Shown piece after piece: positions 673-37,100 of a stretch of DNA of 64,000 nucleotides. The position numbers and the translations under genes were made by a program. The notes under the pieces are model-generated. The model saw only the letters and a list, made by a program, of their open reading frames with translations. It did not search any database and was not told the DNA's origin. Source of the DNA: Membranipora membranacea (taxonomy: Eukaryota > Bryozoa > Gymnolaemata > Cheilostomatida > Membraniporidae); NCBI GenBank assembly GCA_914767715.1, contig OU612066.1:11783001-11847000 (forward strand). The letters run 5' to 3'. Within the stretch, counting starts at the first letter, position 1, and every line of letters begins with the position of its first letter.

Positions 673-689
673 CAAGGAGTAACTCCTTG
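673..689. mobile_element. Micro inverted-repeat element, copy 1 (17 bp)
   Basis: The palindrome CAAGGAGTAACTCCTTG is flanked by attgaat (666-672) and gttgaat (690-696), a 7-bp direct repeat with one mismatch. It shares the CAAGGAGT terminus and flank size with copies at 7190, 15411 and 32469, and more distantly 24425. Confidence 0.65.
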
Positions 690-5185: not shown

Positions 5186-5688
5186 TCTGTAAAATAAAAA
5201 ATTTCAAGATATTAGATATAATATAATGATAGGATAACAAAAATCAAGGAATCTTTTTCTATAAACACAAAATAAAAAATTACTTTGCTTTTCTGGAAAT
5301 TGAAGAAACCACAACTCAAATCAAAATGATATAGATAAAAAATCCAAAGCTCTTCAATAGTAAAAAATGAAAGCAATCCTGGATGATGCTATGAGCAAAC
5401 ACTGATGATCAATGTTCATAGTGTAAAATAAGCTTTCAATAGAACAGCCCGCATTGACAAAAATATTTTTGACAAATTCACTTGGTTAGTTTTACCCATA
5501 AACATATAAATATTAAGAGTATTTATATGTTTATGGTTTTACCATTTATTTTTGTTTGTGATGATCTCAAGCGACACTAGATCATATCTTTTTTCATTAA
5601 GTTCAAGTGACTTGTTTGGCAAATAAAATTGGAAAATAGAAAGTCAGAAGTCCAGTTTCTTGTTATGGTGTACAAAATAATAAGTTAC

Positions 5689-7189: not shown

Positions 7190-7223
7190 CAAGGAGTTAG
7201 ATACAGGTGTCTCTAACTCCTTG
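7190..7223. mobile_element. Micro inverted-repeat element, copy 2 (34 bp)
   Basis: Ends CAAGGAGTTAGA and TCTAACTCCTTG are perfect inverted repeats around a 10-base centre. The element is flanked on both sides by the exact 7-mer gttacat (7183-7189 and 7224-7230). Confidence 0.75.
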
Positions 7224-10005: not shown

Positions 10006-10055
10006 CATAGACTTAATAATAATTTATTATTCCATGTCTATTCTATTAGTCTATG
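10006..10055. mobile_element. 50-bp hAT-like miniature element with 8-bp target duplication
   Basis: Ends CATAGACTTAATA and TATTAGTCTATG are inverted repeats. The exact 8-mer gcttgtcc lies on both sides (9998-10005 and 10056-10063). An 8-bp duplication and CA...TG termini fit the hAT superfamily, although 50 bp is very short. Confidence 0.65.
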
Positions 10056-12054: not shown

Positions 12055-15000
12055 CTATGATCCCGGGGACTTACTACTTGAGGTATCAGTTGTTTGGTCA
12101 GCTGTCATGGTGTTGATCTTCTCTTGTGAGCCTTTCTCTTTTTCAATATTCCTTACCGGTTCCAGTATCTAAAATTGAGTATAACAGTTAGTTAGTTATT
12201 ATAATATATAGAATATTATGTAATATACTGAATATTCTAATTAAGTAATAACTATTACTATTATACTGTATCTATCATGGTTTAACAGCAGAGTAAGTTA
12301 TGTTACTATTATACTGTCTCTATGGCATAACGGCACTGACTGTCAGAGCAAGAAAATTCCCTCACTCCTCGGTCAGACTGGTCTTCACCAACTTCGTCGC
12401 ACACACAGTTACATGTTGATTACAAATGGCTGATTAAAATCAAGGTGTCTTATCACACGCCACTTCCCGAAGCATGGGCCGCATAATATTAGTAGCCTTG
12501 GGGAGCGGCTGCAATATCTGCGCCAGGTTGCTCTTTGTTTGCAGGCAGGTCGGAGCATACCTGGGGCCAATCAAATCCATATAGTCGATGTACTGCAGTA
12601 GGATTCAAACCCATGACCTGCAAATTTGCATGCCGAAGGAAAGGCGCTCTAACCAACAGAGCCATCTCCTACACAAATGGTAAAACGGCACTGACCGCCA
12701 GAGCAAGAAAGTGCCCTCGCTCGTTGGTCAGTTTGGTTCCCACCAACTTCATCACTCACTCAGATACATGTATGACATTTCAGATATATATTATATTTAC
12801 ATGTGACACTCTCGCTTACCTGAATGGTGTGAGTGAGGTCATGCTCTAATGACAGAATGGCAGCTTTACATCCAAACCCGTGGAAATCAGGGGCTGACAT
12901 GAGAGAAATCAGCTTGTTGTCAGCCATGTATGCGTAGCCATCATAATAATTCTGAAAAAAAGGTCATTATTATTATCATATACCATACATGACAATGAAA
13001 AAGTTCAGCTCCACACTAAATTGTCGTAGATTGTTATGGACGCTGGGGGCTGGAACAATCCACCATCAGTTAGCATGCTTACTATTCACTGCAAGGCGAT
13101 TTGTGCCACACGAGTTGTGGGTTTGAGTCCCATTGGGGAGAATTTAATAGTAGAACTTTCCAGCACCCAGCAATTTAAGGTGTATCTGTCTATTCCTTAT
13201 ACAGGGAAAATACAAACTTTCATGATAAAACATAGTGAAAAAATGTCCACGAACATGTATGCATATATTTTATTTGACAGACAAAACAACAAAATTCATT
13301 TACCGTTCTGCCTAATTGTAGTGCATATTAATTTATGTTTGTTTGTTTATGAGTTCAACAATTTGTTATTTTAATAGAAATCGAGTTATGATAAAAACAG
13401 AAAAGAATAATACTCATATTCGTAGTTGAAGTTGTCCCCTCATGTAATGACTCAATATCAATGGAGTTGGATTTGCTGAGTTGCAATAGCTTCTCAAAAT
13501 TAGACAGAGCTCATAAGAAGTACTAGCAGGGGAGGGGGGATGTTCTTAGAAAATGAATTCATCTTAAGGTGCACATATATACCTGCGGGTGTCTTCCTCT
13601 GACAATTAGACTGAGGTCATGTTTTTGCATGAATTCAAAGACAATATCTGGACCATAGTTGTAGCTTATACCCCGGTCTCCATCTCTGAAGCCTTTCATT
13701 TGCTCATCAGGGTCTGACCATATAAGGTCACAGAATAACCCTTGATCAGGACAGTCAGCAGGGCGTGATATACTTCTTATTGTAACCATACTATCAAACA
13801 CTGGGCTCATACCTGTAACATGGAAAAAACTTTGCAAATGAAATATGATTAAATATATTAGGCAGTAACATCATAATACAGAGAATGGGAGTTACCTTCC
13901 CTTATGGGAGGCACTTCTGCCATTTTTTTTAACACTTTTATTACCATCAAAAATGTATGCCAAGAAGAGCATTGAATCTTTTTACCATGAAAATTTAACA
14001 AAACTTTATCATAAAAGTAACTGCCTGACTATAACATTCAATGGTCTTGGGGTTCCCATTGTTTTAATATTATTCATAAAATTTTTCTGATAACAATCAT
14101 TTGTGGTTAGTTCCTGAAAAGTTAGATCATTATCATCTCTCTTTATTTTTATAATATATTTATTATATCATGCTATATAACACAGATGCAGTGTTTTATA
14201 GTTGCATCTACATTTGTCTGAGGGAGATATGTTAAATAAGCAAACAAATAATAACCAATCAAATAACAGTAAAGTCATATCCGTTATGATTATAGAGAAT
14301 AAGTCATAGACATACCAACCTATCTCTCACAACTGTGCTAAAAATAAGCTGTGATATAGACCAAACTGACTGATTCAACTCTCATACTCTGATGCCAATA
14401 AAAGTAATCAAACAAAATTGGATAAACACAGACCTGCACCCTGACCCAACCCTCATAGTCAAATAAAAAGGCATGAATCTCACTTACCGCCACGACAGCA
14501 GAAGACTTTTTGACCCACCAGGGCAGCAATTGGTAAACAATCAAAGCATTTTTTAGTAAACTCTTTCCAGAGTTTTATACTGAATCGTCTTTTACCTGAA
14601 AAATTCACATTTAACAGTTTCCAGTTATACGTGCAAGCATTCCTACAATTCATCTTTAAACTATGATTCCAAGGACCGTTATAATGATTTAATTCTAGTA
14701 ACTTTTGGATACAGATGCTTTTATAGCTGGCTGAAGATACTCCAAACATACTTCTCTTTGGGCTCATTTGAGGGTTTAGGAACTAAAGGTCGAGATCAGT
14801 CCTCGATTAGACTCTAGGATACTACAATTCATAATGCTTTTCAACGCAATTTGTCACATGACATTGAGGGAATTCCCGTAACGAGTTGACAGCCTTGGGG
14901 ATACCCAATTACATTGTGTTTTTACATACACCATGTATTGTTACCAATGTCTCAACACTGGATGGCAGCAGAGTGATAAAAATTGGTGGGAAAAAGTAAT

Positions 15001-15363: not shown

Positions 15364-15410
15364 CTGTATTAGTAATTTCAAAGCATTTAAACGAGAATGA
15401 GAAGTTTGAT

Positions 15411-15432
15411 CAAGGAAGTCTTTTACTCCTTG
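15411..15432. mobile_element. Micro inverted-repeat element, copy 3 (22 bp)
   Basis: CAAGGAAGT and ACTCCTTG are inverted ends. Flanks are gtttgat (15404-15410) and gcttgat (15433-15439). The paralogous intron upstream of unit B exon 3 reads straight through AAGTTTGATGGATTG (about 19181-19195), an empty site lacking both the palindrome and the second 7-mer. Confidence 0.8.
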
Positions 15433-16418
15433 GCTTGATGGATTGTCAATATTTCACTATTGAAATGAAACAGTCTGCCAATTGCAGTGTTAAAAAAAAT
15501 AACGAAATGAAAGTAATCTTGATAAATCATTACAATTTTTGAAGCCTGTATAACCATTATGTCGAAAATTGGACAGGCTAATTTTATTATCTCAAGTATT
15601 GTTGACGAGTAAACATATTTTTCGGTATTTCCCTCAACCCCAAGGATACAAAAAGACTCATGATTTATGCTTCTGAATCCCATACCAATATTCAAATGTA
15701 TATATTCAAGCCCTCTACCCATGTGATTCACTGCGAAAACTGCCCAGCACAAAAAGTGAATAACAGATTGAAACTGTAACAGCATTAGCTTTTTTTGGCT
15801 AGATTTAAATACATATAAAAAATCTTCTAACAATCGGTTATGTCACGTTTGAGATATCTGTTTGTGGCCCACCAAATTGTAATGACCTATATTGACATGA
15901 AGCTCAAGAAAGTATTATGATGAGGTTACAACCAACCTAATTTATTGTGCTCAAATGTACTATATTCAAAGTAGGGTTGATTCATTCTGAGCGTACAATT
16001 TTAAAAGGGCCAAACAGACTTGGTCCTTGGCCTAAGAAAATATCAGGTATAAATCTTAAATATAAAACACAGAAAAAGAAGATTAACAGCGTCTAGCAAA
16101 AATCATAAACATGTACGATATATAATGAATCAATCACAGAATTGCTTATTTTGACACATTGTGGCGCAGTATCGTTGACACAGTATGGCGAACATGATAA
16201 AACCAACTCAACAAATCTTTTATATTATGATTTAAAGAAATTTAAACACTTTGAAAGCAAAAAAAAGCTCATCAAACCACTCAACTAAAACTAAAACTTG
16301 GTAAAACCGCATACAATTAAATAAATCCTCTCAAAGAGAAATTTTTCTGACACAAACTGTACAAACTTTCACGTAGCAATGTGGACGGAATTTAATCACC
16401 TGAGTTCGGGGCCATGAG

Positions 16419-18886
16419 CTAATGTGGGGACCGATTTTCATCTCCATGTGAATCGTCTGATCTTTCCTTCTCCTTCGACCCTAACACCTGAATAAATATA
16501 GTATCATTACAACTCAATGTATGCCGGGATGAGCTACAAATTGGACATCAGATTTTGTTGTTTTGATACAAATGGTTGTTGGCTTTTTGCTTTCCTAAAC
16601 ACTTCAAGGTATAAACTCAAACTCATAGCAATGAAAAGAAAAACTAAATCTACTTGCACAAGGACATTATTGAATGATATAATCGACTTCTAAGTGCAAA
16701 AAAAAAAACAGAGTCTAGAAGGGTCTAAAGTATGTTATCTCCCCTGTGACAGATTAGCACAAAATATCTTTGACAAGAATTCCTTTGACCAATACAGTTA
16801 GTAGTTAAAAGTACCTCAATAGAATGAATGAGATCCTGGTCGATTGATAGAATGGCAGCTTTGTTGTTGAACTCTCCATATAAGTTAGGAACTGAGACTA
16901 AACATACTAGTGTACCATCCGGAAAATAAGTAAACCCGTCATCAAAAGTCTGTCAAACACACGCAAAATATATATGACATCAAACTGGCGTGCAGCTAAC
17001 AGAACGGAGCAAGTCTGGAAATATAGTATCCTGAAGTTATCAGGACTAACATATTCTTGTCAAAAATACAGGATATTTTTGCCTGTCTTCTGTTCCTCAC
17101 ATGCTTGTTTTCAGAGCATATGGTATTTATCTATTTTCAGATGAGTCTATTATGTGGTTTGCATGTGGTTTACAAGAACAAGATTGCCAACTGTTCCTTT
17201 CATAAGGTAGCTACTAGCTATATTTGCAGTTCCACCATCAAAAGCACAACTGAATCCGCTACTGTCTGGATAAAAACCCTCATGAATCAGCTGTCAATAT
17301 GGCAAAACTGCTGCACAACTGTTGCACATATTCACAGTTGAGGATATTTATGTATGTTCGTTTGTTTTGTTTTGTTTATGAGTTCAACAAAATTTTAATT
17401 GAAAAAAGTAGAATAACAAAAAATAATTTTCATATTCACAGTTGAAGTTGTCCCCTCATGTAATGTCTCAACATCAAGTGAGTTGGCCTTGCGGAGTTGC
17501 AATAGCTTAGAAAATTACAAGATTAGACAGAGCTCATGAGAAGTCCTGGCAGGGATGGAATTAGAAGAATAAATCTTCATCTTAAGGTGAACATACCTGT
17601 GGGTGTCTACCTCTGACAATTAGACTGAGGTCATATTTTTGCATGAATTCAAAGACAATATCTGGGCCATAGTTGTAGCTTACACCCCTATCTCCATCTC
17701 TGAAGCCTTTCATGTGCTCATCAGGGTCTGACCATAGAAGGTCACAGAATAATCCTTCATCAGGACAGTCAGCAGGGCGTGATATACTTCTTATTGTATC
17801 CATACTATCAAACACTGGGCTCATACCTGTAACATGGAAGAAACTTTGCAAATTAAATAATTATTTAATATGTTATTATTTAAAGACCACCCAGAGACCA
17901 ATGCATGCTAAAGTCAGGTAGTTACATCATATTCCAGAGAATGGGAGTTACCTTCCCTTATGGGAGGCACTTTTTCCACAGTCAATAATTTATGCCAGTT
18001 AGAGCATTGAATTGTTTTTACAATGAAGATCTGACAAAATTTATCATATCAAGTAACTGCCTGACTATACATGCTTGGTCGTTTGGTTTCAATCCTTATA
18101 ATATTATTCGTAATTTCTTTCTGATAACAATCATTTGTGGTCAGTTCCTGGAACTCAACGTTGGATGATTATCATTTCTCTGTATTTTAATAATATTTTT
18201 ATATATTCTTATATTTTATTAATATTATATATATTATATCTAGACCAGCGTGAGATGCTTAGGAATATCTTCTAATTTTTTTCATACCCAAATTTCCCTG
18301 GCTGCCAGATAAAAAAGGGTGATCTGCTCCAACGGTGTTTTATCAGACTTTTATTGACTCTTTACAATGAATGGAAAAGTCAAATAAAAAGGCACAATTT
18401 TCACTTACCACCATGACAGCAGAAGACTTTTTGACCCACCAGGGCAGCAAGTGGTAAACAATCAAAGCATTTTTTAGTAAAATCTCTCCAGAGTTTTATA
18501 CTGAATCGTCTTTTACCTGAAAAAATTCACATTTTACAGTTTACATTTATATACAAGTCTATGGATAAAACCAATCAAGTCCAATTATTAATTCCATCGA
18601 CAAAGTGCAAGGAAGATTTACACAACAAGAGAGGTATAATAGTACATTTGCTCACATTCATCATAGAATCCGGATATTCTGCTGATACTGGAGATTTCCT
18701 GTTGGCCTCGCAGTAGATATATACTGTGCGGATACTTTATCTTGTACGCCATGAGAAGACACATTATCTCTATAGACTGACGACCTCTGCTCACATAATT
18801 ACCCAGAAAGAGGTACTTTGTTGTAGGTGGATGCTCTCCTAGTGTGAATATCCTCAGCAAGTCGGGATACTGCCCATTAAGGTCAC
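16419..18886 (-). CDS. PP1-like pseudophosphatase unit B (exons 3-7 only)
   Basis: Exons 18886-18656, 18516-18409, 17826-17597, 16949-16815 and 16487-16419 join in frame (773 nt) without a stop. Motifs are GDLNG (metal-site His lost), GNYVSRG (Asp lost), GQQE (both Asn and His lost) and FCCHGG (kept). VRGRHPQ shares the two-residue insertion of the family, and [10 protein letters not shown] stands for the APNYCGEFDN loop. The C terminus is a short acidic tail ending SPH. The active site cannot coordinate metals normally, so a binding or scaffold role is more likely than catalysis. Exons 3-5 closely match unit A whereas exons 6-7 match unit C. B is thus a hybrid made by tandem duplication. Exons 1-2 are absent from the spacer. 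The open frame argues against a dead copy. Confidence 0.75.
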
Positions 18887-19890
18887 CTGTATCATAAATT
18901 TCAATGCATTTATGATAATAATAATATCAATTTTATTTGCTGATCAAGTCATAAATGACACATAAAACCGTGCATAAAACAAATGCGCCATGAATTAGGT
19001 GAATTTGTGAAAAATAATGTTATCAAGTAGGGCAGTTCTTTTTAAGGATTGTGATATTCAATAAGAAAAGGTTAGCATGGGAGATCTTCATTTGAGGAAA
19101 TTCCAGCCACAAAACGGAAACATAAGAGCTGTAGATGAACATTTAGTTCATCGAGTTTGAGTATTTGAAGGTGAATGATAAGTTTGATGGATTGTCCGTT
19201 GATAAGTACAAATAGAAAATAATCTTGATAAACCAGTTCAACTTTTGAAGTTTTTCTAACCATATTGTTGAAAATTGAACAGCTCTTTCACTAGGCCCAT
19301 TCTTTTTTATTATTTTATTAATTTAATTTAATTTAAACAGTAAACATTTATTTCAGTACTTTTGCTCGACCCTAACAATCTGACAACTCAAAAAGTCATC
19401 CAGATTTTCTGCTCCTGAATTCCTTATCGATATAAAAATGAAGGGGCATAATCTAAAATCCATATAATTTACTGTAAGAATGGGCCAGCACCAAAATGAA
19501 AAACAGTTTGTAACGGCATTGGTTTATTTTGCTAGACTGGAATCATAAAAAAATTATCTGAGAATTGTTTAATGTCACATCCAAGATATCTGTTTGTGGT
19601 CCCAAAATTCTAATTAGCGCATTGACATCAAGTTCAAGAAAATACTTTATTATAAGGTTTCATTAAACCTTAATTATTGTGCCCACACGTAATATATTCA
19701 AAGCAAGGCTGATTTATTGAGCATATGTTATTTTATAGGCCTAACCAGACTTGGTCATTGGCTAAACAAATATAAGGTATAAAACTATCATATAAAAGAC
19801 TGAAAAGATAAGTAACGGCAACTAACAAAAATCGTGAACATTTGTGATATATCTTGAATTAACCACAGAATCGCTTATTTTGAGATATGC

Positions 19891-19950
19891 AACAGTATCA
19901 TTGACACAGTATGGCAAACATACAGTATCATTGATACAGTATGGCAAACA
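19891..19950. repeat. 30-bp tandem duplication
   Basis: The unit ACAGTATCATTGACACAGT plus ATGGCAAACA is present twice with one difference. The paralogous spacer near 16.16-16.19 kb has a single copy. Confidence 0.75.
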
Positions 19951-20241
19951 TGATAAAACAAACTAAATTAAACTTTTATATGGCAAATTTGAAAAACGAA
20001 AAAAACTTTGAAAGCAAAAAAAGCGCTTCAATCTTGTCAAGTAAATAAAAAACTTGGTGAAACCGCATGAATTGTTAATATACACCCAAAAAGAAAAGTT
20101 TTCCTGACACAAAAGGAATCAATCACATTTACAAAGTGAGGCAGTTTGTAGTTCCTGTATAGCAATTATAAGTTACTTTATAGTAGCAATGATTGTTAGT
20201 TCCTGCATAGCAATGTGGACGGAAATTAATCCCCAGAGTTA

Positions 20242-20565
20242 AGGTGAGTTTATACTAGGATGTCTTTTGGACGTTTTTAGCAGTGCCAATATTTTTTAAT
20301 AGCTCCCCACCAATGCAACGTTTTCTGAAAGTTTTTAAAAATCGCAAACATGTTTGGAAAAGTTTAAAGTTGTCTTCTCTTTTTAATGTCCTCATTGGTC
20401 TTCACCTATTAAGGACAGTGAGAAGACAAATTTTTATTTTCCAAAATTGAAAACTAATAAAAAAGCTCAAAAATCGCATGCTGGGAAGACAACTCTCCAA
20501 AAACACTCAAAAATCGTCACTATTGCTAATAACGTCCGAAAAAGGTCATATTATAAACTTACCTC
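20242..20565. mobile_element. MITE-like fold-back next to PP1-like C stop codon
   Basis: Ends AGGTGAGTTTATA and TATAAACTTACCT are inverted repeats, with looser inverted homology for about 45 bp inward (the GGACGTT..TTAGCA region). The paralogous site beside unit B (about 16399-16413) reads continuously from CTGAGTT to GGGGCC. This insertion is therefore specific to the C side. The flanks suggest a TA duplication but the edge is not certain. Confidence 0.65.
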
Positions 20566-20578
20566 TAGGGGCCATGAG

Positions 20579-23133
20579 CTAATGTGAGGACAGATTTTCA
20601 TCTCTATGTGTATCACCTGATACTTCCTTCTCCTCCAACCCTAACACCTGAATAAATATAGCGACATAAATCAAGCAAGGAGTGATATAAGATGCATTAC
20701 AACTCGATGTATGTCAGATCAAGGCGCTATATCGTTGACTTAAGAAACTTCAAGTTTCTAGCTGAACCAAATCCTTGTTTCAAAGTGGCCTTTTGCAAGC
20801 AGCTTCCCAGTAAAATGGGTGTTAACTGAATTGTAGGCAAATTAGAGCACCTTGATGTAACAAATTAGTACACCTAGTTCCCTCTGTATAACATTTCATA
20901 GTATCTAGTTGTTGACAACACAGCAACAAATTTGGCTGGGTTAATGGTGATTTTTTCAAACACATAGCAGTTGATAAAGGATTGAGTTGAGATTGTCACG
21001 AGGATATCTCCATTTCAGCATATAGTACTGCGTTTAAAGTCACAGTTGTATAATTAATTGTAGTAAGAAATACCTCAATAGAATGAGTGAGATCCTGGTT
21101 GATTGATAGAATGGCAGCTTTGTTGTTGAACTCTCCATATAAGTTAGGAACTGAGACTAAACATACTAGTGTACCATCCGCAAAATAAGTAAACCCGTCA
21201 TCAAAAGTCTGTCAAACACACGCAAAATATATATGACATTAAACTGGAAAGCAGTTGATGGTATGGAACAAATCTGGAAATAGTAGTATTCTCATGTAAT
21301 AAAGACTGCATATTCTTGTCAAAAATATACGAAAAAACTTGGCCTTTCTTATGTTCCTCACATTGCTTACATTCATAGCAAATTGTATCAATCAGCTTTC
21401 CAATGTGTTGTGGTTTGCTTGTGATTTGCAAGAACATGATTGCTAAATGTTCCGGTCATGATGTAGTGACTAGCTATCATTTCAGTTGATCAGTCAAGAG
21501 CCCAACTGAATCCGCTACTGTTATGGATAAAAACCCTTACGCCAACCATGATCGCATTCACAGAATTGTTTTAACGAACCCGAATTTCCAACCAGGTTAC
21601 GATACACCTGAGGACTTACCTCGATGTGCCTACCTCTGACGATCAGGCTTAGCTCATGTTTATGTATGAACTCTGAGACAACATCAGGGCCATACTTGAA
21701 GCTCTTTACATCCCTGTCTCCCTCTGTGTAACCACTTATATCCTCCACTGGCTCTGACCACATAAGGTCACACAACAAGCCTACTTCAGGACACATAACA
21801 GGCTTTGTTATAACTCTGATCTTATCCATACTGTCCAATTCTGAACTCAGACCTGTGAGAGTTTGGCAAACAACATGCGAAACTTTAAGGATAGAATTAT
21901 TCCAAGTTGACCAGGTGTATTTGGTACTACTGTTAGGTAACAAACATATAAAGAATTAAGCTCAGAATGCTCTTCCAATGATGATGAATATTGACAGACT
22001 TTGGTATTCTAAAAGCCACAAAATTCATCGTTACCGACTCTTTGATAGGTCAAAAAGTTTTTTACTAAGTATTATAAGAAGGTTTCCTCTCTTGCTGGCG
22101 TGATATAATGCAGCCTGATTTAAATTTCGATGAATAATATATTCCGTATTTGTAGCTGAGAATGACATTGAACAAATTTTAGAGCAAAAACGATGCAGAT
22201 TTATGGCAGTGGTAATATCACCATAGTGATGCAGTGGAAACTTCACACAAAACATTGGCTGACTCGCGTCAATGTTCGTGACATTTGAATGAAAAAGTGG
22301 TTATAGAGATTTATCCTCTTAACAGTTAGGAGAAGACAACTTCCCAGTGTCAGCATAAGAAAGCTATTGGAAGATTGAGAGATAATCCTACCTACCTCCA
22401 TGACAACAGAAGACTTTTTTCCCAACCAGAGCAGCAATAGACAGATTATCAAAACATGTGGAGTTGAAGTTCTTCCACAGTTTTACGTTATAACGCCTCT
22501 TACCTTAACAATACAAAAGCTTGAGATACTAAATTCATATGGTAAAAGCGCATACAACATATTCTGAATGTACTGAAATAAAACCAGTGCTGGACATTAT
22601 CAGGAGAGAAAACATCGGGAGAGACGCAACCTATATATCTTGTCTCTATAGGCAACTTCAACAGAACTTAATCTAATAGACAAAAAGGCGAAACATGTTG
22701 AGATAGTATTCTCAAATGTCCCTGTCTATTTTTCTACTCATTTCACAGAAATAAATAACGGGATGCCGAGAAGAAAATCTGCGTCTGTTACATCAATATT
22801 TACCAGATATCAAATACAAGTTAGAATCATGCATTGTCAGCAAACTTAATAACAATATTTCCTGTAACTTACATTCATATAAGAATCCAGAATATCGGTT
22901 CACCGTCCTGTTCTCGTTCACACCACGCAGTAGATATATACTGTCAGGATATTTTATTTTGTATGCTAACAGTAAACACATCACATCCACGGATCTATAC
23001 CCGCATGATTTGACATAGTTACCCAGGAAGAGGTACTTTGTGTGTGGGACATCACCTCCGTGTCTGAACACCTCCATGAAATCAATGAACTGACCGTGAA
23101 TGTCACCTGGTTGGTGAAAACACTGATATATAA

Positions 23134-23172
<39 letters not shown>

Positions 23173-24340
23173 CTGTTGCATCTGGAGTATTTGATGTTCG
23201 GTGCATGTCCTATGTCTGAGGAACTTTGTCAGAATAATTGTAATATTTTTTATTAGGCGCAGCGTAAAATATACAATATTCATCATGCCCAGAGAAGAAA
23301 GGCCAGATATTTGTATGAGTTGTGTGCACTTTTGAAAAGTGGAAATAACTCCCATACTGATTTAGTCAGACAGGTCCCTAGATTTGATGTTAGTCAATAT
23401 TATGTCCAGATTTCCTTGTGTAGCATTATGTGGCAATCCAATCAAATAGGGAGGACTTTCCCTTACCTAAAACTATAGTATTTTGATGTGGAATGTGCAT
23501 CAAAAAAGACAAAAATTGTCAGGGAAGGGGAAAAGTACTTTGAATAAATCCACTGTTGCAATGACTTGCGCATTGTAGTTATTTATGATTCAGAGTGAAA
23601 ATTGAATGTGGTTGGCTGATCAAATAACTGATAAGATGTAGGATTCAAAATACGATGGATATAGATACATTAGTTTGTATATATATATGTCCTTCTTTTA
23701 TACAAGGTCATATTGCTAAAAAGAAATCTAAAGACAAGAAGTTGAGAGACTCACAACAGAAGTCGGATACAAAGGACAGCTAATGATGACATCTAATGAA
23801 AAAGATCGGAACATGAAAATTAATGTTTACAATCGGGCATTAGACTGTGATTATGACTTACCAACAATTTTCACAGGTGCATCGATTTCTAGTAAAGTCG
23901 GTTCACTCAGGAGTATTTCCCCGGATCTCCGTATTAGCTCCTTAATCTCATCCAAGGAAACCACCTCCCCTGTATCACCTGGTTTTATACCTGTAACAGG
24001 TATCACATAATTTAGGTACATCTCATGTTGACAGCCTCTCAGGGAGCAAGCTGCTCTTGATTACCATTTTTTCAGAGCCATGCTTTGTATGGTGTTTTGA
24101 AACTGATGGATCTACCATGTTACACTGATGTCTTTCGTAAACAATTATGGAGTTTGACTGTTACCAGAATCATCGACAGAGTAAGCATCTACCCAATCAA
24201 GCATCAAGAAAACAATGAGAGAGAAAAGAATATAACAGTGACAGTGACCTACCATTGCTGCTTATGTTCAGCAGTTTGGTAATGATTCCGTCCAGGTCGA
24301 ACTCTATTTCAACATTGGCATCACCTGCATTAGTAGCCAT
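20579..24340 (-). CDS. PP1-like pseudophosphatase unit C (complete, 7 exons)
   Basis: Exons 24340-24253, 23990-23862, 23106-22873, 22503-22396, 21852-21620, 21208-21074 and 20647-20579 join in frame to 996 nt, 331 aa, the usual PP1 length. The N terminus ([10 protein letters not shown]) and [19 protein letters not shown] align with PP1 up to the first metal motif, which is intact. GDYVDRG is replaced by GNYVKSCG and GNHE by GVNE; FCCHGG is intact; RAHQ is VRGRHIE with a two-residue insertion. Metal ligands Asp92 and the Asn124/His125 pair (PP1 numbering) are lost, so it should be catalytically dead or severely impaired. The overall PP1 fold, including ECKRRYN and KLWKNF, is well kept. The start ATG follows a UTR acceptor at 24365. 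TWNK lies divergently 1.7 kb away. Confidence 0.85.
23125..23172. repeat. (TA)n microsatellite
   Basis: An AT dinucleotide run interrupted by TAAA, lying in intron 2 of PP1-like C just upstream of exon 3. It generates spurious Tyr-Ile frames. Confidence 0.9.
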
Positions 24341-24424
24341 CGTATCAATATTGCAGCACCCAAATCTGAAAAAAATATCAAGAACACAAACTTGATAATC
24401 CTCGATTCATCATATTGATGGCAT

Positions 24425-24450
24425 CAAGGGGTAACAGCTGTTAATCCGTG
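24425..24450. mobile_element. Micro inverted-repeat element, copy 4 (26 bp, diverged)
   Basis: The sequence starts CAAGGGG, ends CCGTG and has the perfect central palindrome TAACAGCTGTTA. It is flanked by exact 7-mers atggcat (24418-24424 and 24451-24457); the match extends to 8 if the terminal G is counted with the target. Confidence 0.6.
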
Positions 24451-25521
24451 ATGGCATGATGCCTACGCTTTGTTTCTAAACTGCTGTCATAAAAAGTGAG
24501 TTTCATATCATGGACCACAGCAAGTTTTTCCAGGTTTGTCAGTTTATGAAAATGGACAGGCTGAAACTAAATCACTTTTATATTTCTTCTTCAACATCAT
24601 GCCCTAATTTCCCAGGGAACTTACTCACTGGACCACTAATACAGCTGCCAAACACCAGGCCTGTGCTGTAGCCACGCATTCAGGCTGCCTCTAACTCTGG
24701 TATTGAATGTCAACATTGTTAGTGATCAGTTTGTTGTGTTCCTAAGTCTGCAATATTTTTTCTTTCTTGATACTGTACAAGCTTTAACAGCAGATAATTC
24801 AAACCTTGCTGAGGCTGTTGTTACTGAAGTGCAGTAGTAGTTCCAGTGGAGCAATGGAGTGACTGTGAGTTTATTCTTGAATTAATTAACAGTGTACTGA
24901 GTAGGAGTTGGTAACTCAATTAAAAATGCATCAGTATCTGATCTTATGAATTCGCGTAAACTGCACTGCTTTGACACAGTTTTGTCTGATGTCTATCATG
25001 CGAGTATATGAGGAAACTAGGGAGCTGTGAAAGAGAGGAAATGAAAACATGACTCATCTGGATTAGGTATGTCAAATTTCATTTCAGTTTGGCATTATAT
25101 TCTCAATGTTTGGGAAATGAGTTTTCCTGTGAAATTCAACCAATGAGGTTGCTACTCCAAAAGTCCAAGAGGTGCAGTTAAAGTTTTTCCCTTTTAAATT
25201 TGTAAACACCAAAACTATTGGCCAAATAGAGTATTCATTTTAGCCCAAATTTGATGGATGCACACATATGGTAGAAATTGTTTAGGTCATATTTATGGAA
25301 AAATCAGCAGCTTTGACTAAGATTAGTTTAGCATGATCCGATCTGGATAGCATGTTAACAAAATCTGTATGAAACTTGTATGAATTGATTTAGTAATGGT
25401 CACATGTGCAGATTAAACTTTCAAACAGTGAATGCAGACTGATGCCATCTCACAAAAAGAATCTATGATTTTTGTATGAAGCAATGCAAGGAAACTCCCC
25501 CAATAATAAGGTAAGTTTATG

Positions 25522-25526
<5 letters not shown>

Positions 25527-25552
<26 letters not shown>
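25527..25552. repeat. (TA)n microsatellite
   Basis: An AT dinucleotide run followed by further AT-rich sequence to about 25620. It produces a false Tyr/Ile-rich frame on the minus strand. Confidence 0.85.
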
Positions 25553-26067
25553 GATGAATATTATATAAAATAAATATATAAACACATACATGTATAGATA
25601 TATATAAATATCATATTTATCAATTATGATATAGATACTATTAGTACATACATACATAAAACCACAGTCACCACCCTGTTGGTCTACTCTATTATGATTG
25701 ATCAATGAATCTTTGGATTGATGGTCCGAATGGGCGTAGAGCAAAAATATTTGCTCTCAACCTGGTAGGATCCAAATGAGAGTTTTGCATCTACTGTGTT
25801 GCGCAGTGGCACTTCGCCCTGTAAACCTATAGCTAAGTGCTATTGGGGCATGTGTCAATGTAGCCTGAGCTGTGATAACGCAACTACTTCTGAAGGATAA
25901 TTCAAAAAGAAGTTAAATTAACTATTTTGTAATTGATATTGCACTGACAGACTGATATACATAACAAATTAACTGAGTGAATGTGGCAAGAATAACAATT
26001 TTTGATATCATCTCCTATGACATCTTTTCTTTGATACAGGCATGCTTTTGATTCATCTACTGATGTC

Positions 26068-29000
26068 ATGTTTGGACTAGAGCGTAGGCTTTGTTCAATC
26101 CTACTCAATAAAGCTACCTGCCGTCTTAGTCCTAATCAAACCTCTAACCGAGGCTTGAAGAATGAGCTGATCATGTCTCAGTCAGAGCCTGTGGACTCCA
26201 GTAAGATTAAGACTTTCCTAGTTGATCACGGTATCCCCCACAAGAAGGGACACGCCTGTCTCACCGCCACATGTCCCAAGTATAGAAAGGGTAAACTCAA
26301 GCTAAAGGCTGTTGATCAGCTCTTCATCAATGAGACCACAGGTACGTTTTGAAGTCAATGTGCATAGGCTGTTTATGTGTATGTCTGATATTGGTGTTAA
26401 ATTTTTTGAACATTGCTTTAATATGCTCTGCCGTTCAAAACAACATGTTTTTGTTTTATTCTCAATTTGAACAGTTAGCTGTTGCTAATTCTTTTAAATT
26501 GGTTGCCACTGTTTTTTTGCAGGTTACTTTCTTTGTCTTTCATGCCAGAAGTCTGGCCCTTGGAGAATGCTGCAAGACAATATAGGAGCATTGACTTTCT
26601 CTAACATCAAAAACCCGTCTAAATAGTAAGTAAACCCTCCTGCCAGTGTTGCTCCTCATTGTGGTGATCACCTAGAATGAATACAGTGTTTTACTCCATA
26701 GCTCCTACAATAAACCTTTACCGCAGTACCGTGAATCGTTTCTGGATTTCCCGAGCGGTGAAAAATTTTCTAATTAGTAACAAAGTTGTTATATACAGGT
26801 ACCCTGCCACATTTAGTTATGTCAGCAGAATCTGTGTGCGGTTTGTACTGACTAATGTTAAAGTGACAGTCCTACTAGGCAATGGTTGGTATGGTTTTAA
26901 AGATCTCAGGCTGAAAAGTCATTAGGGTATACGAAATAAAACAGCTTGTGGACCTAATTGTAGTAAAACTGCTGCAAAGTCTGAAAATTGGGATCATAGT
27001 AGATCATAGTGATTTATTGCCTCCCCCTGACCACTATGATCCACTATGATCCGTGCTAAAATAATTGGAAAAAAAAAATTACTACTTTCCACAATTTTCA
27101 TTTTTTTATTATTTTTATTTGCCCTATCAACTCACAATATCTGATTTACTGGGGTGATAGGCCTATATCCACTTTTCTAATAGTACTCTAATGTATCTCA
27201 TGTCAATTACTTGTTCATTGTAGTGAGTGTTTTCAGAACTGGTCAGATGTCAAACATGTAGAAGATGTGTCTGATGTTGTGACTAAACTTCTGTCTACTT
27301 GCACCAAAGAGCCAGAAGATCTGGATAATTTTCAACAGTTTATAAAGGTGAATAATACTATATTGACTAATAGCTGACCATTTAGCTTAGATTACTTTCG
27401 TGCACTGTTATATGAGTAATAATGTTTTGTTTTGTTCCATGATTCATCATTTGGGATATCATTTGCCTTCTGTAATTCACCAATGTAGGATGATGACTAC
27501 ACAGTTTTCCTGGAACAATTAAAGTTGAATCATGAGCTACTATCAACAACGACAAAGCTTATTTGATTTATGATTACAAATTTGTTGCTGAAACCATGCA
27601 AAAGAATGCCATGTGCAGTTTCCAGGGAGTGGTTTGACCCATGTAAAATAGGGCAGATAACTAGCTCTGTAAGTAATTAAAACGTATGCTTTCTTATCTG
27701 TTAAGGAAATGAATTTGGAGAAGATCACTATCAAGACATTACGTCATTACAAAGTAGAGTTCCTGGCGGATGAAATGGGATTAGTATACCCTGCATGTGA
27801 TACGACTGGGACACCTGTCCATGCTAAGATTGTCAGGAGAACTTTTGCAGGAAAACTTGATACTGAAACTCTACCAAAGTGAGCATCAATCGTATCATTA
27901 AATAGGCATGTGGGAATGTATGTATCTTGCAAAAATGAAATTTTGTCATACCCATGAAAACTTTTTTTATGTCATTATTGTATCCGCAGCCCAGTCAGGA
28001 GTAGTCTAACGGTTAAGGGTACGGATATGTGATCTTTGAGGTCCAGGTTCAATTCCCGGCGCCGGCAGTCATTTGTGATTTGGTTCTGGCACGCCATTCA
28101 TCCTAGCCAGGTCCTTGCGGAACGGGACTAAAAATACCGGTGGTCCGCTGTATGTTTGCACACCCCACACGCAGTAAAAAGAACCCCCTCTCCCTCTTCG
28201 ATAAAGAGTAGCCAAGTTACCGGCGGGCATAAGTAAAGGGTGTAGCATGACTACTATGGGCCCCAGTACCTGTTCCCAAGAGATGATAACTCTCTCCGCT
28301 TCAAAGATGATGATCCCCCCAGGGGGGGGGGAGGTACCAACTGTGATAGAAAATGCTTTGGTGATGCACCACAACAAAATACTGTGGTGTATTTATCTTT
28401 GTTTGTCATCATTAAAAGTCTCAACAGTGCCATCAAAATTTTCTTAGTTGCTGATCAGAATCTTTAGATTTCTGTGTGCTATTGAGCCAAAATATAGTGC
28501 CAACTGCAGAAGTATGAGGGTTCACTTTTTTAATAAAATTATTTTCCAGGAGGGATTATTTGGGATTGTTTGGATTCCATGTGGCGCTCAATCGTAACCA
28601 TGTGATACTGACAGGATCTGAGGCTGATGCCATGGCTGTATATCAGAGTACTGGTGTACCGGCTATAGCTCTACCTCGTGGTATCACAACGCTACCTCAG
28701 GAGGTAAGAGGCACACGCTCTGCTTCCATCTTGTGCACCTTGCCTTAATTAAATGGTTATATTTTTTCATATTCTTTCTTCATACCTTACTGGGAGCAAG
28801 GTTCATATACCAGTTTTGGTGTATTATCTATAATACCATCACCGGCAATGGGCCATTTACTCTGTGCTTCCAATAATCTGACTAACAACACGTTATGCTC
28901 ATATATTTTTATTCCTGTAGGGTACAAATATTGGTGTTGGGTATGGAAAAAGATCCAGCAGAAAATGTATGAATAATTGAGTCAACAAACCTTCCCATAC

Positions 29001-32000
29001 ATATTTATATTATTTAGCGTCTGTTTGTTATCACTGATGGCTCCTTACTTTTGTAGATTCTTCCATTCCTAGAAGATTTTAAAAAGATAACTCTATGGTT
29101 TGAGAACAGTATGATTGCATTTGCTAATGTCAAGCAGTTTGCTAATAAACTTGGTGCTAAAAGATGTTTGGTTGTACGGTAAGCTCCGAATTTTAGCTTT
29201 ATTCTGCGGAAAAAGGCTATTCTTACCATACAATGTCTTGACTGGTGCTGTATACCGCTTATATACACCTTAGTATACAATATAAATTTTTGTCTGTTAA
29301 TACTGGGTGTGAGACTCATCCCCCCCTGCTACAGAATTGTCACCTATGCCCTGCTAGAGCCTTCCTTAGTGAAATTTGTGATGTAGGTCAGCTTCACTTT
29401 TGCTCTTTTTCTCCTGTTCATCATAATATGTTAGTTAGAATTTGCATCGGCAGAAGAACTATTTGCTTTCTTGGACAAATTGTAAATACTGTTTAGCGCC
29501 TTCTTTACTTTACAGACCAGATAAAGACAGCCTTGGTCCACACGAAGCTCTGAAATCAGGAAAGTCACTCAAGGACATCTTGCACCGAGCCACTTCCATA
29601 CAGAATTCTCATATTATACAGTTCAGCGATCTGAGGGATGAGGTCAAGAATGAACTCCTCTGTGCTCCAGATGTGGCTGGAGTTCCTGTAAGCGTTCTCT
29701 TGATGCGGAAGACCTTGTTCTGTTTGTGAAAAGCCTTTTAACAATGTGTCTCTACATAGACATACAGTGGAATTCACTGAATTAAGTGACATAAGAATGC
29801 ATCAAAATCTGGCTGACCAATTCCTTGTCTGAATTAACAGGAGTTCTGAATTATTAAGACTGAATTAACCAGCTTACATTGTATGTATGTTACTTATATT
29901 TCTATGATAGTCATACGCTTGAAGCTACCAATCACTCTCGTACATCATTGTTGATGATGACAGAAGTTTTCAACTAATTGCAGATTAATGCATTCACTTT
30001 CATGGTGGAAACATGGAAGTATATATCAAGATGCAAAGACCCTTGAAGAGAAACCATCTGCAGTTGAGCCAGCTGAGGTTATGATTTTAAAACTTGTAAT
30101 AATACTAAATCTTTCTATCATTCAACAGTGGACTAGGTTTGGTAAGTTAACTGAGATACTGAAGGGACATCGACGTGGTGAGCTGACAGTGTTAACTGGT
30201 GCTACTGGAACTGGTAAAACTACATTTATAGGAGACTACTCACTAGACTTATGTATGAGCGGGGTATGTATCGCCATATACTGTCCGAGGGTGAGCAATC
30301 AACATCTTAAAATTTAGTAAGAAGGAAAATTTCTTGTGAATAGGTATATCATGTAGATCAAGGAATTGATTTGGAGTGAGCATGGTATGATGTTCTAGCT
30401 TTCTTAGGTCTTATGACCCAGTTACCTAAACCATTAAGGAACTATAGTGGTTATTGATAGAAAACAGGAAAAGATACTGCATAAATTTTGACATCCAATA
30501 ACGAAACCAAACCTAAACCAGGCTACATTTATTCTGTTTTAGGAGTTGCGTGCTCGCAACAAAAGAGCAGACAACATGGTTTTCATGAAAACAAACTGCA
30601 TGAAACCCTTGCAAATTGTTTCACATCTCTTGCAGTTTTTTATGACCTTAGCAATAAACTTAACTTTTTTTTATTTTCAAGGTAAACACATTATGGGGAA
30701 GCTTTGAGATATCAAATGTGAGACTTGTTAAGATGATGTTGCAACAATTTGCTCAGTGAGTACAAACAATACCTTTACATTACACTACATCTGTATACAT
30801 GCAATAGGTCTTGATCTTAGACAAATTGTGTCTACAAACTCACCAAGAATGATACACTGGTAATTATACTCACCAAAAAAACTCTCAGTTAGCCTGAGCT
30901 GTTATCCCACCATGTGACGCGATTGGATTGTAGACTTAGACTGACTGGATCGCTCTCACCCTCCTTTTCCAAGGAAGGGGAGGGAAGCAACTCCAAAACG
31001 CTGTAACAATTAACCATGATTGACCTTGTTTGTATACATTATGATTGCAGAAAGAATTTAGCTAAGCATGCAGACAAATTCGATGTTTGGGCGGACCAAT
31101 TTGAATCTCTTCCTATGTATTTCATGAACTTTCATGGCGAAGAGAGTATCAACAAAGTTGTCGAGGTAAATTTAAATCCTATACGCCTTGCTATAGTGTT
31201 TATCCCTAACCCTTCTGGATTATCTAAAACCAAAATACTGATCTCAATATTAAAGGGTCCTTCAATGCATATCAAAGACTATTTGTGTTACTTTGAAGAC
31301 AACTTTGAAAACAAACGACTTATTTTATTACACATTGGAAACATATATAATACTGATTTAAATGTGGCCCTGTCATTTTTCAAATAATGTGATTATAAAG
31401 GTGTCACAGTGAGCCACCTCTTCGCATCTCATCAATTCAAAAACGTCATGTCAACGCTATGAAGTGAGGATGCCCCTTTTTATTACCTTTTTTGAAAACT
31501 TCATTCATTGATCTCCTTGTGTATTTTATATTAACATATTCTCCTGTGTTCCACTTTCAGACCATGTCACACGCTGTGTACGTTTACGATATATCACATG
31601 TAATAGTAGACAATCTTCAGTTCATGATGGGCGCCGGAGATTCTAGAGTGGACCGATTTACTCGCCAAGATCAGATCATTGCAGCATTTAGGAAGTTTGC
31701 CACCACTATGCAATGTCATGTTACTCTCATCGTTCATCCAAGGAAGGTAAGCTCCGCCTCGATGACCCACATAAGCAGTTACATTTATTCAGAATCCTGA
31801 TAATAGTATCCCTGTGTATAAGGTCAAATGAACTCGACTCAGTTGGGATGACCGGTGCAGTGAGCTAACTAAAGTTGTATTTGGTCTGTAAAAATTCATA
31901 ATATAGTTTATTTTATAGTTCTACTATTTGTAGAAGTTGAGTCTGAGTTCCATAACAAGTAGTTGAAAGATAAGTGTGTTATTATATCAACATGTGAGAA

Positions 32001-32717
32001 TCTGCCGTAAATAATGAATGGGAGCCTCTCCTCAAGTCTAACTACAGTGTACAAGTGGGAGGTGAACAGGATTAACCCGATTATTGTATTTTTTTTTTTT
32101 TATAGGAGAACGAAGAACTCCTGACCACTAACTCAATTTTCGGCAGCGCCAAAGTGACTCAGGAGGCTGACAATATTATTATCCTTCAGCGTCTAACTAC
32201 CAGGGATGGTGTAAAGACTAAATATCTACAGGTATGTCCTGTGTGAGACTGTGATAGGCTTCCTGTAGTATTGGTTACCTGTCTTAAAATAAATTTCTCT
32301 CCTCCCGCGGGGGTGAACTACATGCTCTTATAGGCAATGGCAATCGTTGGTATCTTCCTAGACATTTTGCAGAGTTCTGTCGCTATGAGACTAATATTTT
32401 GTGAGGGCTCAGACCACAACTTTCCAAGGACCTTCAACAGTTGTATGTTTGAGGGCAGGCGCTCTAACCAAGGAGTTAACTCCTTGCTCTAACCAACTGA
32501 GCTACCTCCTATTCCTCCTAATGCATGAGACGTTATTAATGTACAGGTCAGTAAGAATAGATTTGATGGTACTCTGGGTATGATGAAGCTGAGATTTAAC
32601 AAGGAGACAAAGAGTTTTTATTCTGCTCAAAGGACTCCGGCCTCCAACTCTTCCCACTCCAGTATCGACTCCAATCCTCCTAGTAATAATAGCAACGATG
32701 ATGAAACTCAGTGGTAG
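26068..32717 (+). CDS. TWNK: Twinkle mitochondrial DNA helicase
   Basis: Thirteen exons: 26068-26341, 26523-26625, 27224-27347, 27706-27878, 28550-28703, 29057-29178, 29516-29687, 30129-30263, 30682-30755, 31051-31165, 31561-31746, 32106-32231, 32547-32717. All have GT-AG borders and compatible phases. They total 1,929 nt, 642 aa plus stop (human about 684). Twinkle is the hexameric 5'-3' helicase of the mtDNA replisome. The basic, acid-poor first 30 residues fit a mitochondrial presequence. Next come a primase-type Zn region with Cys pairs CLTATC and CLSC, and a TOPRIM-like segment ([12 protein letters not shown]). A linker leads to the RecA-type helicase: Walker [21 protein letters not shown], Walker [35 protein letters not shown] and [12 protein letters not shown]. 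The first ATG in frame was chosen; earlier ATGs are out of frame. The C-terminal tail is Ser/Asn/Asp-rich. Confidence 0.95.
26991..27052. repeat. 62-bp hairpin in TWNK intron 2
   Basis: GGATCATAGTAGATCATAGTG and its inverted copy (CACTATGATCCACTATGATCC) surround a 20-base loop, with a single mismatch. Each arm itself is two tandem GATCATAGT words. Confidence 0.8.
27993..28260 (+). mobile_element. tRNA-derived SINE in TWNK intron 4
   Basis: The head has perfect internal promoter boxes: A box TAGTCTAACGG (28002-28012) and B box GTTCAATTC (28047-28055), 34 bp apart. A tRNA-unrelated body follows, beginning near TTCTGGCACGCC and running past CCGGCGGGC. The 3' limit is unclear; a G/C run follows near 28320. 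No intact tRNA cloverleaf was evident, so it is not called as a tRNA gene. Confidence 0.7.
32431..32515 (-). mobile_element. tRNA-like SINE head in TWNK intron 12, interrupted by a micro element
   Basis: The minus strand reads GAGGTAGCTCAGTTGG (perfect A box) then GTTAGAG. It is split by the 18-bp palindrome, after which GTTAGAG is repeated and followed by CGCCTGCCC. The related head at 12.6 kb on the minus strand runs through GGTTAGAGCGCC unbroken. The B-box end is degenerate. Confidence 0.7.
32469..32486. mobile_element. Micro inverted-repeat element, copy 5 (18 bp, perfect palindrome)
   Basis: CAAGGAGTTAACTCCTTG is flanked by ctctaac at 32462-32468 and 32487-32493, an exact 7-bp duplication. 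It sits inside a tRNA-like SINE head whose uninterrupted form exists at 12.6 kb. Confidence 0.85.
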
Positions 32718-34163: not shown

Positions 34164-37100
34164 CTATGTGATTTCACTAGTTGTTGTACCTGGTTGTGTG
34201 TTGATTGATGTACCTGCTGGCATGCTGGTTGTAGTACCTGCTGGCATGCCGGTTGTTGTATCTGCTGGCATGCCGGTTGTTGTACCTGCTGGCATGCTGT
34301 TTGTTGTACCTGCTTGCATGCTGGTTGATGAACCTGCTTGCATGCCGGTTGTTGTACCTGCTGGCATGCTGGTTGTTGTACCTGCTGGCATGCTGGTTGT
34401 CGTAACTGCTGGCATTCTTGTTGTTGTACCTGCTTGTGTACTAATGGTTGTACCAGATTGCATGCTTGTTGTTGTATCGACCGATACCGACCCTGTTGAT
34501 GTAGTTAATATTGTGGTGGTGCTTGAGGATTCTGTGTTAGTGTTTAGCTCATCAGTGGTTGATTGTGATGATGACAGTTGAAGCCTCAGCGACTCTACTA
34601 GTGGGGTGTTCTCGGCAGATGATACTAGTACACTGATCACAGAATCATTGAGATTGTCCACCAGATAGGCTGTTAAAGTACTATCTGTCTCCTCTATTGT
34701 AGCAAAGTCCAGCATTACTATAACAGTGCTGACTGTGACGCTGTCATTCCTGGAAAGCAAAATCAAAATAATATAAATATGTATAATATGTTGTAATTGA
34801 CTTTATTCAACGTTCAACGTTAAATGTTGGTATAGTCTAAGTGCTCAGACAACTGGAAGTGTATGTTTGTGGCATAGCATTCGCTCACCCTACTTATTAT
34901 AGACTCCCACATCAAGTAGCCAAAATATTGCACTAGCTAATAATAGATCACCCCTAGCTAGCTGATCAAAACTCTAGCTAACATTTACGATTTATTTGCT
35001 ATTAGACTATGATGGGTATGACGTATAAGACCATGCATTAATAAAAATTGACCTGTTTATATATGAAAAGTTAAAGCATACTCATGGAGTATAGAATCTC
35101 TCTAATTGGATGAGGCCATGTGAATTGTGCTGGCTCAAATTTTGGATTGGATGAATCTGTTGGAATATTACCTGATTGAATGAACCACACATAGCATGTC
35201 GTCGCCACTGTTGTATGCGTCCAATATAGCTTCGCATACCTCCATCCCAAGTGTCGAGTAAGCGTCACTAGTTGTATTTAGATAGTCCGAGATCCAGCTT
35301 ATATTGAGCGATACATCTACTGTGAATGCATCTGATGATGAAAAGAAACGGTTTCATTTAATTCAATTATTTTTAGGAAGTCATTTTTTTTTAACCAAAT
35401 TATCTAGGAGTGTGGTCACTCGGCTATTGAATATGTCAGCTATTAATCTATGCCTGAGTTTCACCCGTGGTTCACCTTCCGCCAGATCATGGGCTTGAAA
35501 GCGTTCAATATTGTAAGCATGTGTATTTTCTCGAGATTTATAATTGATTCATTTAAGGTAGAGACACGGGGGTCTGCGAATATCAGCTTTCTATACACCG
35601 TTAGAAAGCTGCCGAGCTACTGAACGCTATGAACTCATCGAAGATGGAATTTGATGACGTTGCATCATTTTATCAAGAAAACGAGCCGAAAAAGGCTGTT
35701 TTTAGCAAAGTGGATGGCTGAGCTAATTTGATTGCTAGAAATTTCAAAACAGGTTATACTTATTCTTAGAGACATAGTTCATCCTAATTTATGGTTGAAA
35801 ATAATATATATCATGAGCCCAAAGTGGCTTTTTACGTCACGTCATGTTGTGTGTGATTTTCGAAATATGACGATATAATGTGAACCTTTAAGCAAAGATT
35901 TGAGATAGAATAAATGAGTGAGAGCCATTCCTTTTGCTTTTTTCCACTGAACTGCTGTTTAAATGACATACATCCAAATTTTCAGCAGGGTGAATAATTT
36001 ATGAAGATCAGCACAGACCATTGAAGGTAGATACATTTTACGCCATTTTTTCATAACGCGAAACATGCTGTCAAAAGGTCCATTACTGAGGCCAGAAATT
36101 TTTTTTTTGAAAGTTCCCACATACAAAGCCGCTCTGATGAGGCATAGTACAAACAGGAAATGCCAACAAAATATGGCACTGTGTATCGGTTGTCCCAGAA
36201 TTGCGCATCACAGAATACCCAAAAACACCTTAAAAAGCCCCTAAAATTGGCTGTTTTTGGCGTTCTGTGGTGCGTTATTCGGGAAAAACTGGTAAGTAGT
36301 GACATATTCTGTTGGCATTTCCTGTTTTTATATACTTAATCAAAGCGGCTTCGTATGTGAGAACTTCCAAAAAAAATTTGTCTGGCCTTAGTAATGGCCC
36401 TTTTGACAGCATGTTTGGCATTATTTAAAAATGACGCAAAATGTATCTACCTTCATCGGTCTGTCCTGATCTTGATTAATTTGTTATACTGCTGAGAATT
36501 CAGGTGTGTGTCATTTAAACAGCCCTCTAGTGGAAAAAAGCAAAAGATTTGGGTTTTATTTATTCAATCTATCTCAAATTCATGCTCAAAGTTTCACATC
36601 ATATCTTCAAATTTCAAAAATCACACACAACATGACTTTACGTAAAAAGCTACTTTGGGCTCATGATATATTATTTTCAACCAAATATTAAGATGAACTA
36701 TATCTCTAAGAATAAGTATAACCCGTTTTGAAATTTCTAGCAATCAAATAAGATCAGCAATCCACTTTACTAAAAACAGCCTTTTTGGCCTCATTTCCTT
36801 GATAAAATGATGCAACGTCAACCAATCCTATTTTTTTTGAGCTGTTAGCGATCAGTAGCCCATCAGCTTTCCAACGGTGTATGGAAAGTTGATATTTGCT
36901 GACCCCCGTGTCTCTACCTTAATAGTGGTATTGGGGGTATAAATACTGAGTATTTGCTTAATAAAGACTCAATCATGAGCGTTGTGCCCCACTCACCATA
37001 GTTACAATCTGTTTCATCAGTAGTTGTTGCTTTCAGAGAGGTCGACTCAGGGATAGCAGATTGATCAGTGCTGTATTCTGTATATGAAGAGGTCTCGGTA

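Follow-up and report, generated by a model that had tools for sequence, protein, structure and literature searches.

Palindromes with 7-bp direct flanks in the genome of Membranipora membranacea as very probable excision scars of a P-superfamily transposon

Short palindromes in the window

The stretch analyzed here, referred to as the window, comprises 64,000 nucleotides of the bryozoan Membranipora membranacea (GenBank assembly GCA_914767715.1, contig OU612066.1, positions 11,783,001 to 11,847,000, forward strand) and contains five palindromes of 17–34 bp, each located between 7-bp direct repeats (Table 1). Related palindromes recur throughout the genome, and we consider it very probable that they represent thousands of independent excision footprints, hereafter scars, of a P-superfamily transposon with 7-bp target duplications. 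Such a mechanism is already known; it is the scale that is unusual. An initial annotation of the window, made from its letters alone, had pointed to the five palindromes, and all of them lie at the positions it gave, with flanks that are, as claimed there, identical at three sites and differ by a single mismatch at two. Scanning the window for CA..TG inverted repeats of 14–60 bp (at most one mismatch in 8; exact 7- or 8-bp flanks) returned 4 sites, as compared to 0 in each of 60 dinucleotide shuffles; two of the four, both flanked by 8-bp repeats, were newly found.

Table 1. Features of the window related to the palindromes ("scar" denotes a palindrome read as a probable excision footprint)
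Positions	Strand	Feature	Flanks	Remarks
673..689		17-bp scar CAAGGAGTAACTCCTTG	ATTGAAT/GTTGAAT, 1 mismatch	
5497..5535		39-bp CATAAAC-type palindrome CATAAACATATAAAT..	exact 8-bp GTTTTACC	probably a scar of another family; intact copies not seen
7190..7223		34-bp scar	GTTACAT, exact	17 + 17 end bases
10006..10055		50-bp scar, CATAGAC-type P family	exact 8-bp GCTTGTCC	ends similar to those of the L026 P element
12349..12371		candidate decayed scar, weak	GTCAGAG/GTCAGAC, 1 mismatch	
12642..12671	-	unoccupied sequence related to the tRNA-like site that holds the 32469 scar		one GTTAGAG; 90% over 30 bp
15411..15432		22-bp scar	GTTTGAT/GCTTGAT, 1 mismatch	stubs of 6 and 16 bases (by eye)
24425..24450		26-bp scar	ATGGCAT, exact	approximately CAAGGAGTAACAG + CTGTTACTCCTTG, 3 substitutions (by eye)
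32469..32486		18-bp scar CAAGGAGTTAACTCCTTG	CTCTAAC, exact	within tRNA-like sequence

Genome-wide abundance and flanks

The genome searched was the species' own assembly (339 Mb, 18 contigs). We found that the ends CAAGGAGT and ACTCCTTG separated by 0–20 bases, i.e., palindromes of 16–36 bp, occur at 2931 places, as compared to 4 for the reversed pattern, and that the same ends at 35–65 bp occur at 347 places, as compared to 1 in the control; the two counts share few places, namely those of 35–36 bp and nested ones. Flanks were compared at 30 exact-ended places of 16–36 bp from the window and loci L001–L024 (L004 was omitted, as it overlaps L003). The C1 loci were picked for holding listed places and are uninformative on density, while their flanks are unselected. 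The 7-bp flanks are identical at 19 of these places, show one mismatch at 7 and two to four at the remaining 4 (L002, L006, L017, and L020), that of L002 being nested inside a 38-bp place with exact flanks. Permuted 7-bp flanks reach this level of agreement (no more than one mismatch) in 0.9% of cases, against 26/30 observed. Flanks of 5, 6, and 8 bp in the same sample always carry at least 2, 3, and 4 mismatches, respectively; thus, the target duplication is 7 bp in length.

The head CAAGGAG (one mismatch allowed, 12–70 bp) gave a matching picture: 7-bp flanks that are identical or differ at one position accompany it at 31 places, flanks of 5, 6, 8, or 9 bp at 0, and six permuted heads used in its place yielded 0 flanked places. 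Among 20 long places fetched (35–62 bp), the 7-bp flanks are exact in 10, differ by one mismatch in 1 and by two to seven in 9. The proposal that the palindromes form one family with real 7-bp target duplications is borne out, with an excess of matching 7-mers over permuted controls at the places compared. Neither of the contrary outcomes named in the annotation, i.e., no flank excess or inclusion of the palindromes together with their flanks in a larger repeat, was encountered.

Structure of the joints

The 50 listed places represent 35 distinct sequences, of which 22 can be composed exactly from a prefix and a suffix of the end of a single subfamily, 0–2 bases being shared. The palindromes retain at most the outer 16–17 bases of each end, joined by 0–2-bp overlaps or by filler. 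In places longer than 34 bp, this filler repeats pieces of the ends (L036, L039, and L050; L007:9289-9343), and at L041 two scars are separated by another copy of the target. Such tandem scars, with the order target-scar-target-scar-target, are found both at L041 and at L005:2047-2108, as if a second insertion had hit the same target beside the first scar or the target had been copied in repair.

Intact elements with the same ends

The 16-base end CAAGGAGTTAAAGACA has 177 matches in the genome and 0 in the control. From 100 listed places, 20 were fetched, excluding known scars and including three from the C3 cluster. The match ends at base 16 or 17 in 15 of them and at base 21 in 1, and full ends are present in 4 (L059, L063, L064, and L065, the last with one mismatch at base 18); L063, L064, and L065 are copies of each other, with a common flank. 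When 3 mismatches at most are allowed, a 28-base end is matched at 58 places (control: 0). We observed that 13 of these 58 full CAAGGAGT ends, all on the + strand, lie at C3:21.75-22.51 Mb, where the flank shared by the three ends read suggests a large duplicated array. The array also has P transposase matches of another family, the transposase near its CAAGGAGT ends being a member of the family of L070/L083 described below.

Intact elements of 1179 bp (L071), 820 bp (L072), and 117 bp (L074) share the 29-bp terminal repeat CAAGGAGTTARAGACAAGGAGATGCAACA and are enclosed by the exact 7-bp duplications GGGGAAC, ATTGAAT, and CTGTGAC, respectively. They thus exhibit the inverted repeats of around 30 bp, starting with CA and ending with TG, and the 7–8-bp target duplications of the P superfamily. 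A third P-like trait is the palindromic target preference: in 128 symmetrised flanks of 64 sites, T occupies position 2 in 112, and the motif GTNNNAC resembles the GTANTAC type. As a P transposase gene is longer than any of the three elements, they are non-autonomous. The unseen transposon with the same termini that the annotation had considered was found in the form of intact short elements; of the longer, transposase-coding copies that it advised looking for, longer same-ended copies were found, a transposase gene inside them was not. In L071, element positions 563–914 of 1179 (L071:601-952) represent a separate repeat, present also in L001, L018, and L021.

Other P families of the genome

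Searches for PF21787, the RNase H domain of P transposases, gave 134 genome matches among the 150 of 211 candidates scored, none of them linked to CAAGGAGT ends. Two of the families carrying this domain served as controls. In the CATAGACC family, represented by L026 (4933 bp), ends CATAGACCTACTAATAATAAACC with 30 identical end bases and an exact 8-bp duplication GTTAGATC enclose a PF21787 match. In the CATAGAGTTATCCCC family (L070/L083), PF21787, PF12017, and PF21788 are located between matching ends, with the flanks GGTACAAT/GGTACAAC (by eye). Both families thus combine a transposase domain between matching ends with a target duplication, as is characteristic for the P superfamily. Of the other candidates, L028 yielded no ends, and the 754-amino-acid P transposase of L027/L029 lies within a longer segment duplicated at 99%, whose ends were not located.

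Both control families have scars as well, with exact 8-bp flanks at L005:2082-2108 and L001:1964-1988 and one mismatch at L005:2047-2073. Palindromes of the CATAGAGT type occur at 236 places, as compared to 3 in the control, a count that takes in an AT-rich subfamily for which no intact copy was seen. The TATCCCC-type CATAGAGT scars that were fetched possess exact 8-bp flanks in 4/4 cases and a 7-bp match in none. These 8-bp-flanked scars of the control families imply that the scar type follows the P transposase, while the flank length follows the family.

Palindromes ending in CAATGAAC and CAGGGAGAAT were also noted with exact 7-bp flanks (L007:9415-9440, L024:4650-4678, and L004:1400-1420; L009:8493-8510 and L001:2671-2693). 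These two types and the CATAAAC-type palindrome of the window (5497-5535) look like scars of further families, of which no intact copies were seen.

Excision scars and alternative explanations

According to the explanation that we favor, elements with the 29-bp ends CAAGGAGTTARAGACAAGGAGATGCAACA insert and duplicate 7 bp, a step displayed by the intact copies. On excision, the transposase would nick one strand at the element boundary and the other around 17 bases within the terminal repeat, leaving on each chromosome end a target copy and a 3' tail of around 17 bases; we deduce this cut geometry from the stop points of the scars and from the Drosophila P element. The tails would then be trimmed unequally and rejoined via 0–2-bp overlaps or via filler with a template in the vicinity. 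These joints are observed; the enzymes are presumed to be those of end joining, either the classical or the polymerase-theta pathway. The product would be a palindrome of at most 34 bp, or longer with filler, between two 7-bp copies of the target. Over time, such scars would pile up into a genome-wide record, with other P families leaving theirs between 8-bp flanks. Overlaps of 0–2 bases are compatible with either pathway, whereas the copied filler points to theta. The family's own transposase would belong to the P type and cut around 17 bases inside the repeat, a position that the stop points of the 20 chosen places indirectly indicate.

Several observations weigh against this explanation. 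Matching 7-bp flanks are absent at 4/30 short and 9/20 long places, and L073 represents paired ends without matching flanks. Filler of 1–11 bases is required in 13 of the 35 distinct scars, the six end prefixes used for the joint analysis were taken from the same scar listings, and a second stub is not clear at L051 and L058. The match of L060 to the terminal repeat extends to base 21, where the extra bases may be copied filler. Finally, no copy bounded by CAAGGAGT ends was found to code for a transposase, and a PF21787 match was seen, by eye, near none of the 40 left ends scored (one subfamily, 78 candidates).

The annotation had raised the idea of internal-deletion derivatives, i.e., ultra-short non-autonomous elements made of two fused ends and transposing as such. 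Inverted ends and exact target duplications would fit such elements, as would the recurrence of some sequences, e.g., CAAGGAGTACTCCTTG in 6 of the 50 listed places. Yet, recurring sequences are also expected from trimming to the common first 8–10 bases, and the 35 distinct sequences among 50 places are mostly different joints of the same stubs. A miniature inverted-repeat transposable element would be one sequence with both full terminal repeats; here, 35 distinct joints occur in 50 places, the repeats stop at base 16–17 of 29, so that bases 18–29 are absent, and the filler is made of end pieces. We thus regard micro-elements that moved as such as highly improbable. The annotation's other suggestion, an unusual integration mechanism, is not retained either, because stubs ending at or before base 16–17 are what a P-type transposase, cutting within the terminal repeats, would leave behind at the donor site.

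Footprints or insertions of another superfamily, hAT or Dada, deserve mention, since CA..TG-type ends and 6–8-bp duplications are not unique to P, and since Dada is known to target small RNA genes and one of the scars lies within tRNA-like sequence. However, scars of the same build derive from families whose ends enclose a P-transposase domain, the target motif resembles that of Galileo, and hAT excision is not known to leave long terminal-repeat stubs; on these grounds, this origin is highly improbable. A third possibility accepts P footprints but attributes them to a tamed, excision-only P transposase that removes elements rather than moving them. It would account for 2931 and 347 scar places against 58 intact ends, a rough ratio as the subfamily sets differ, and for the autonomous copy not being found. 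Prolonged ordinary cut-and-paste accumulates scars too, though, the intact 7-bp-flanked elements show that insertion took place, and a tamed transposase was not identified. It is very unlikely that the genome possesses, or once possessed, an excision-biased, perhaps tamed, P transposase that swept several P families from the germline, leaving thousands of scars and few elements, in a purge by cutting with an outcome like programmed elimination but error-prone rejoining. Scars clearly outnumber intact ends in what was counted, in a comparison that is not strict because the 58 ends belong to one subfamily and the scars stem from at least six end prefixes. We propose that ordinary cut-and-paste by P elements over a long time would have produced this number.

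Comparison with known systems

The P transposase of Drosophila makes a staggered cut 17 bp inside a 31-bp repeat, which gives 17-nucleotide tails (PMC7776569). Fly P excision joints have a copy of the target on either side; between the two copies, no more than 17 bases of each end meet at a short microhomology, bluntly, or via an insertion, which may be templated (PMC2895639), and those of the P{wa} assay are of near-identical types to the scars described here (PMC2895639). In that system, polymerase theta is required for joints with long microhomology and contributes to complex insertions, while classical end joining typically shows overlaps of 1–3 bases (PMC2895639). The Drosophila joints come, however, from a laboratory assay with repair mutants and one 8-bp target (PMC2895639), whereas those of M. 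membranacea are natural, number thousands and have 7-bp flanks and other ends.

Galileo, another member of the P superfamily, shares 7-bp duplications and a similar target (GTANTAC, compared with GTNNNAC here), but has very long terminal repeats in contrast to 29 bp, and the available text does not mention footprints (PMC4168063). Anopheles P elements possess terminal repeats of 27–31 bp and have given rise to MITEs, short non-autonomous elements comparable to L071, L072, and L074, but duplicate 8 bp instead of 7; the word footprint is absent from the part of the paper at hand (PMC1562414). The zebrafish P element Pdre2 has 13-bp terminal repeats and 8-bp duplications, and the corresponding portion of text uses footprint once, for a binding assay (PMC10983969). 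Five scar or end strings had no occurrence in the literature text searched, and we found no description of a genome-wide P scar record among the listed literature titles and abstract openings on footprints, scars, and remnants.

If our explanation is true, one genome holds around three thousand rejoined germline breaks whose starting ends are known, each consisting of two tails of around 17 bases and a 7-bp tag proving a former insertion. It would thereby become possible to measure, across evolutionary time, how breaks are joined in nature, which overlaps are chosen, and how filler is copied, and the 17-base cut, a peculiarity of the Drosophila P element, would seem to hold for a family with 7-bp duplications as well. 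Short palindromes with target duplications should be treated with caution, as they may be scars and not elements, and counts of past transposition would have to include scars in addition to copies.

The tRNA-like target and other features of the window

At the 32469 site, ARAGORN called no tRNA, with the scar either included or removed; therefore, we claim only tRNA-like sequence. In addition to the unoccupied relative of this target in the window (Table 1), a second short one, with GTTAGAG present once, is located at L007:8868-8901. The surrounding region, L007:8868-8953, comprises the tRNA-like 5' half in three head-to-tail copies, 26 bp apart.

The window also contains an open frame of 5496 amino acids (40726-57216, minus strand) with Thr/Ser-rich tandem repeats, mucin-like by eye, and similar Thr/Ser-rich repeat frames are found near it at 36914-39283 and 57715-60777.

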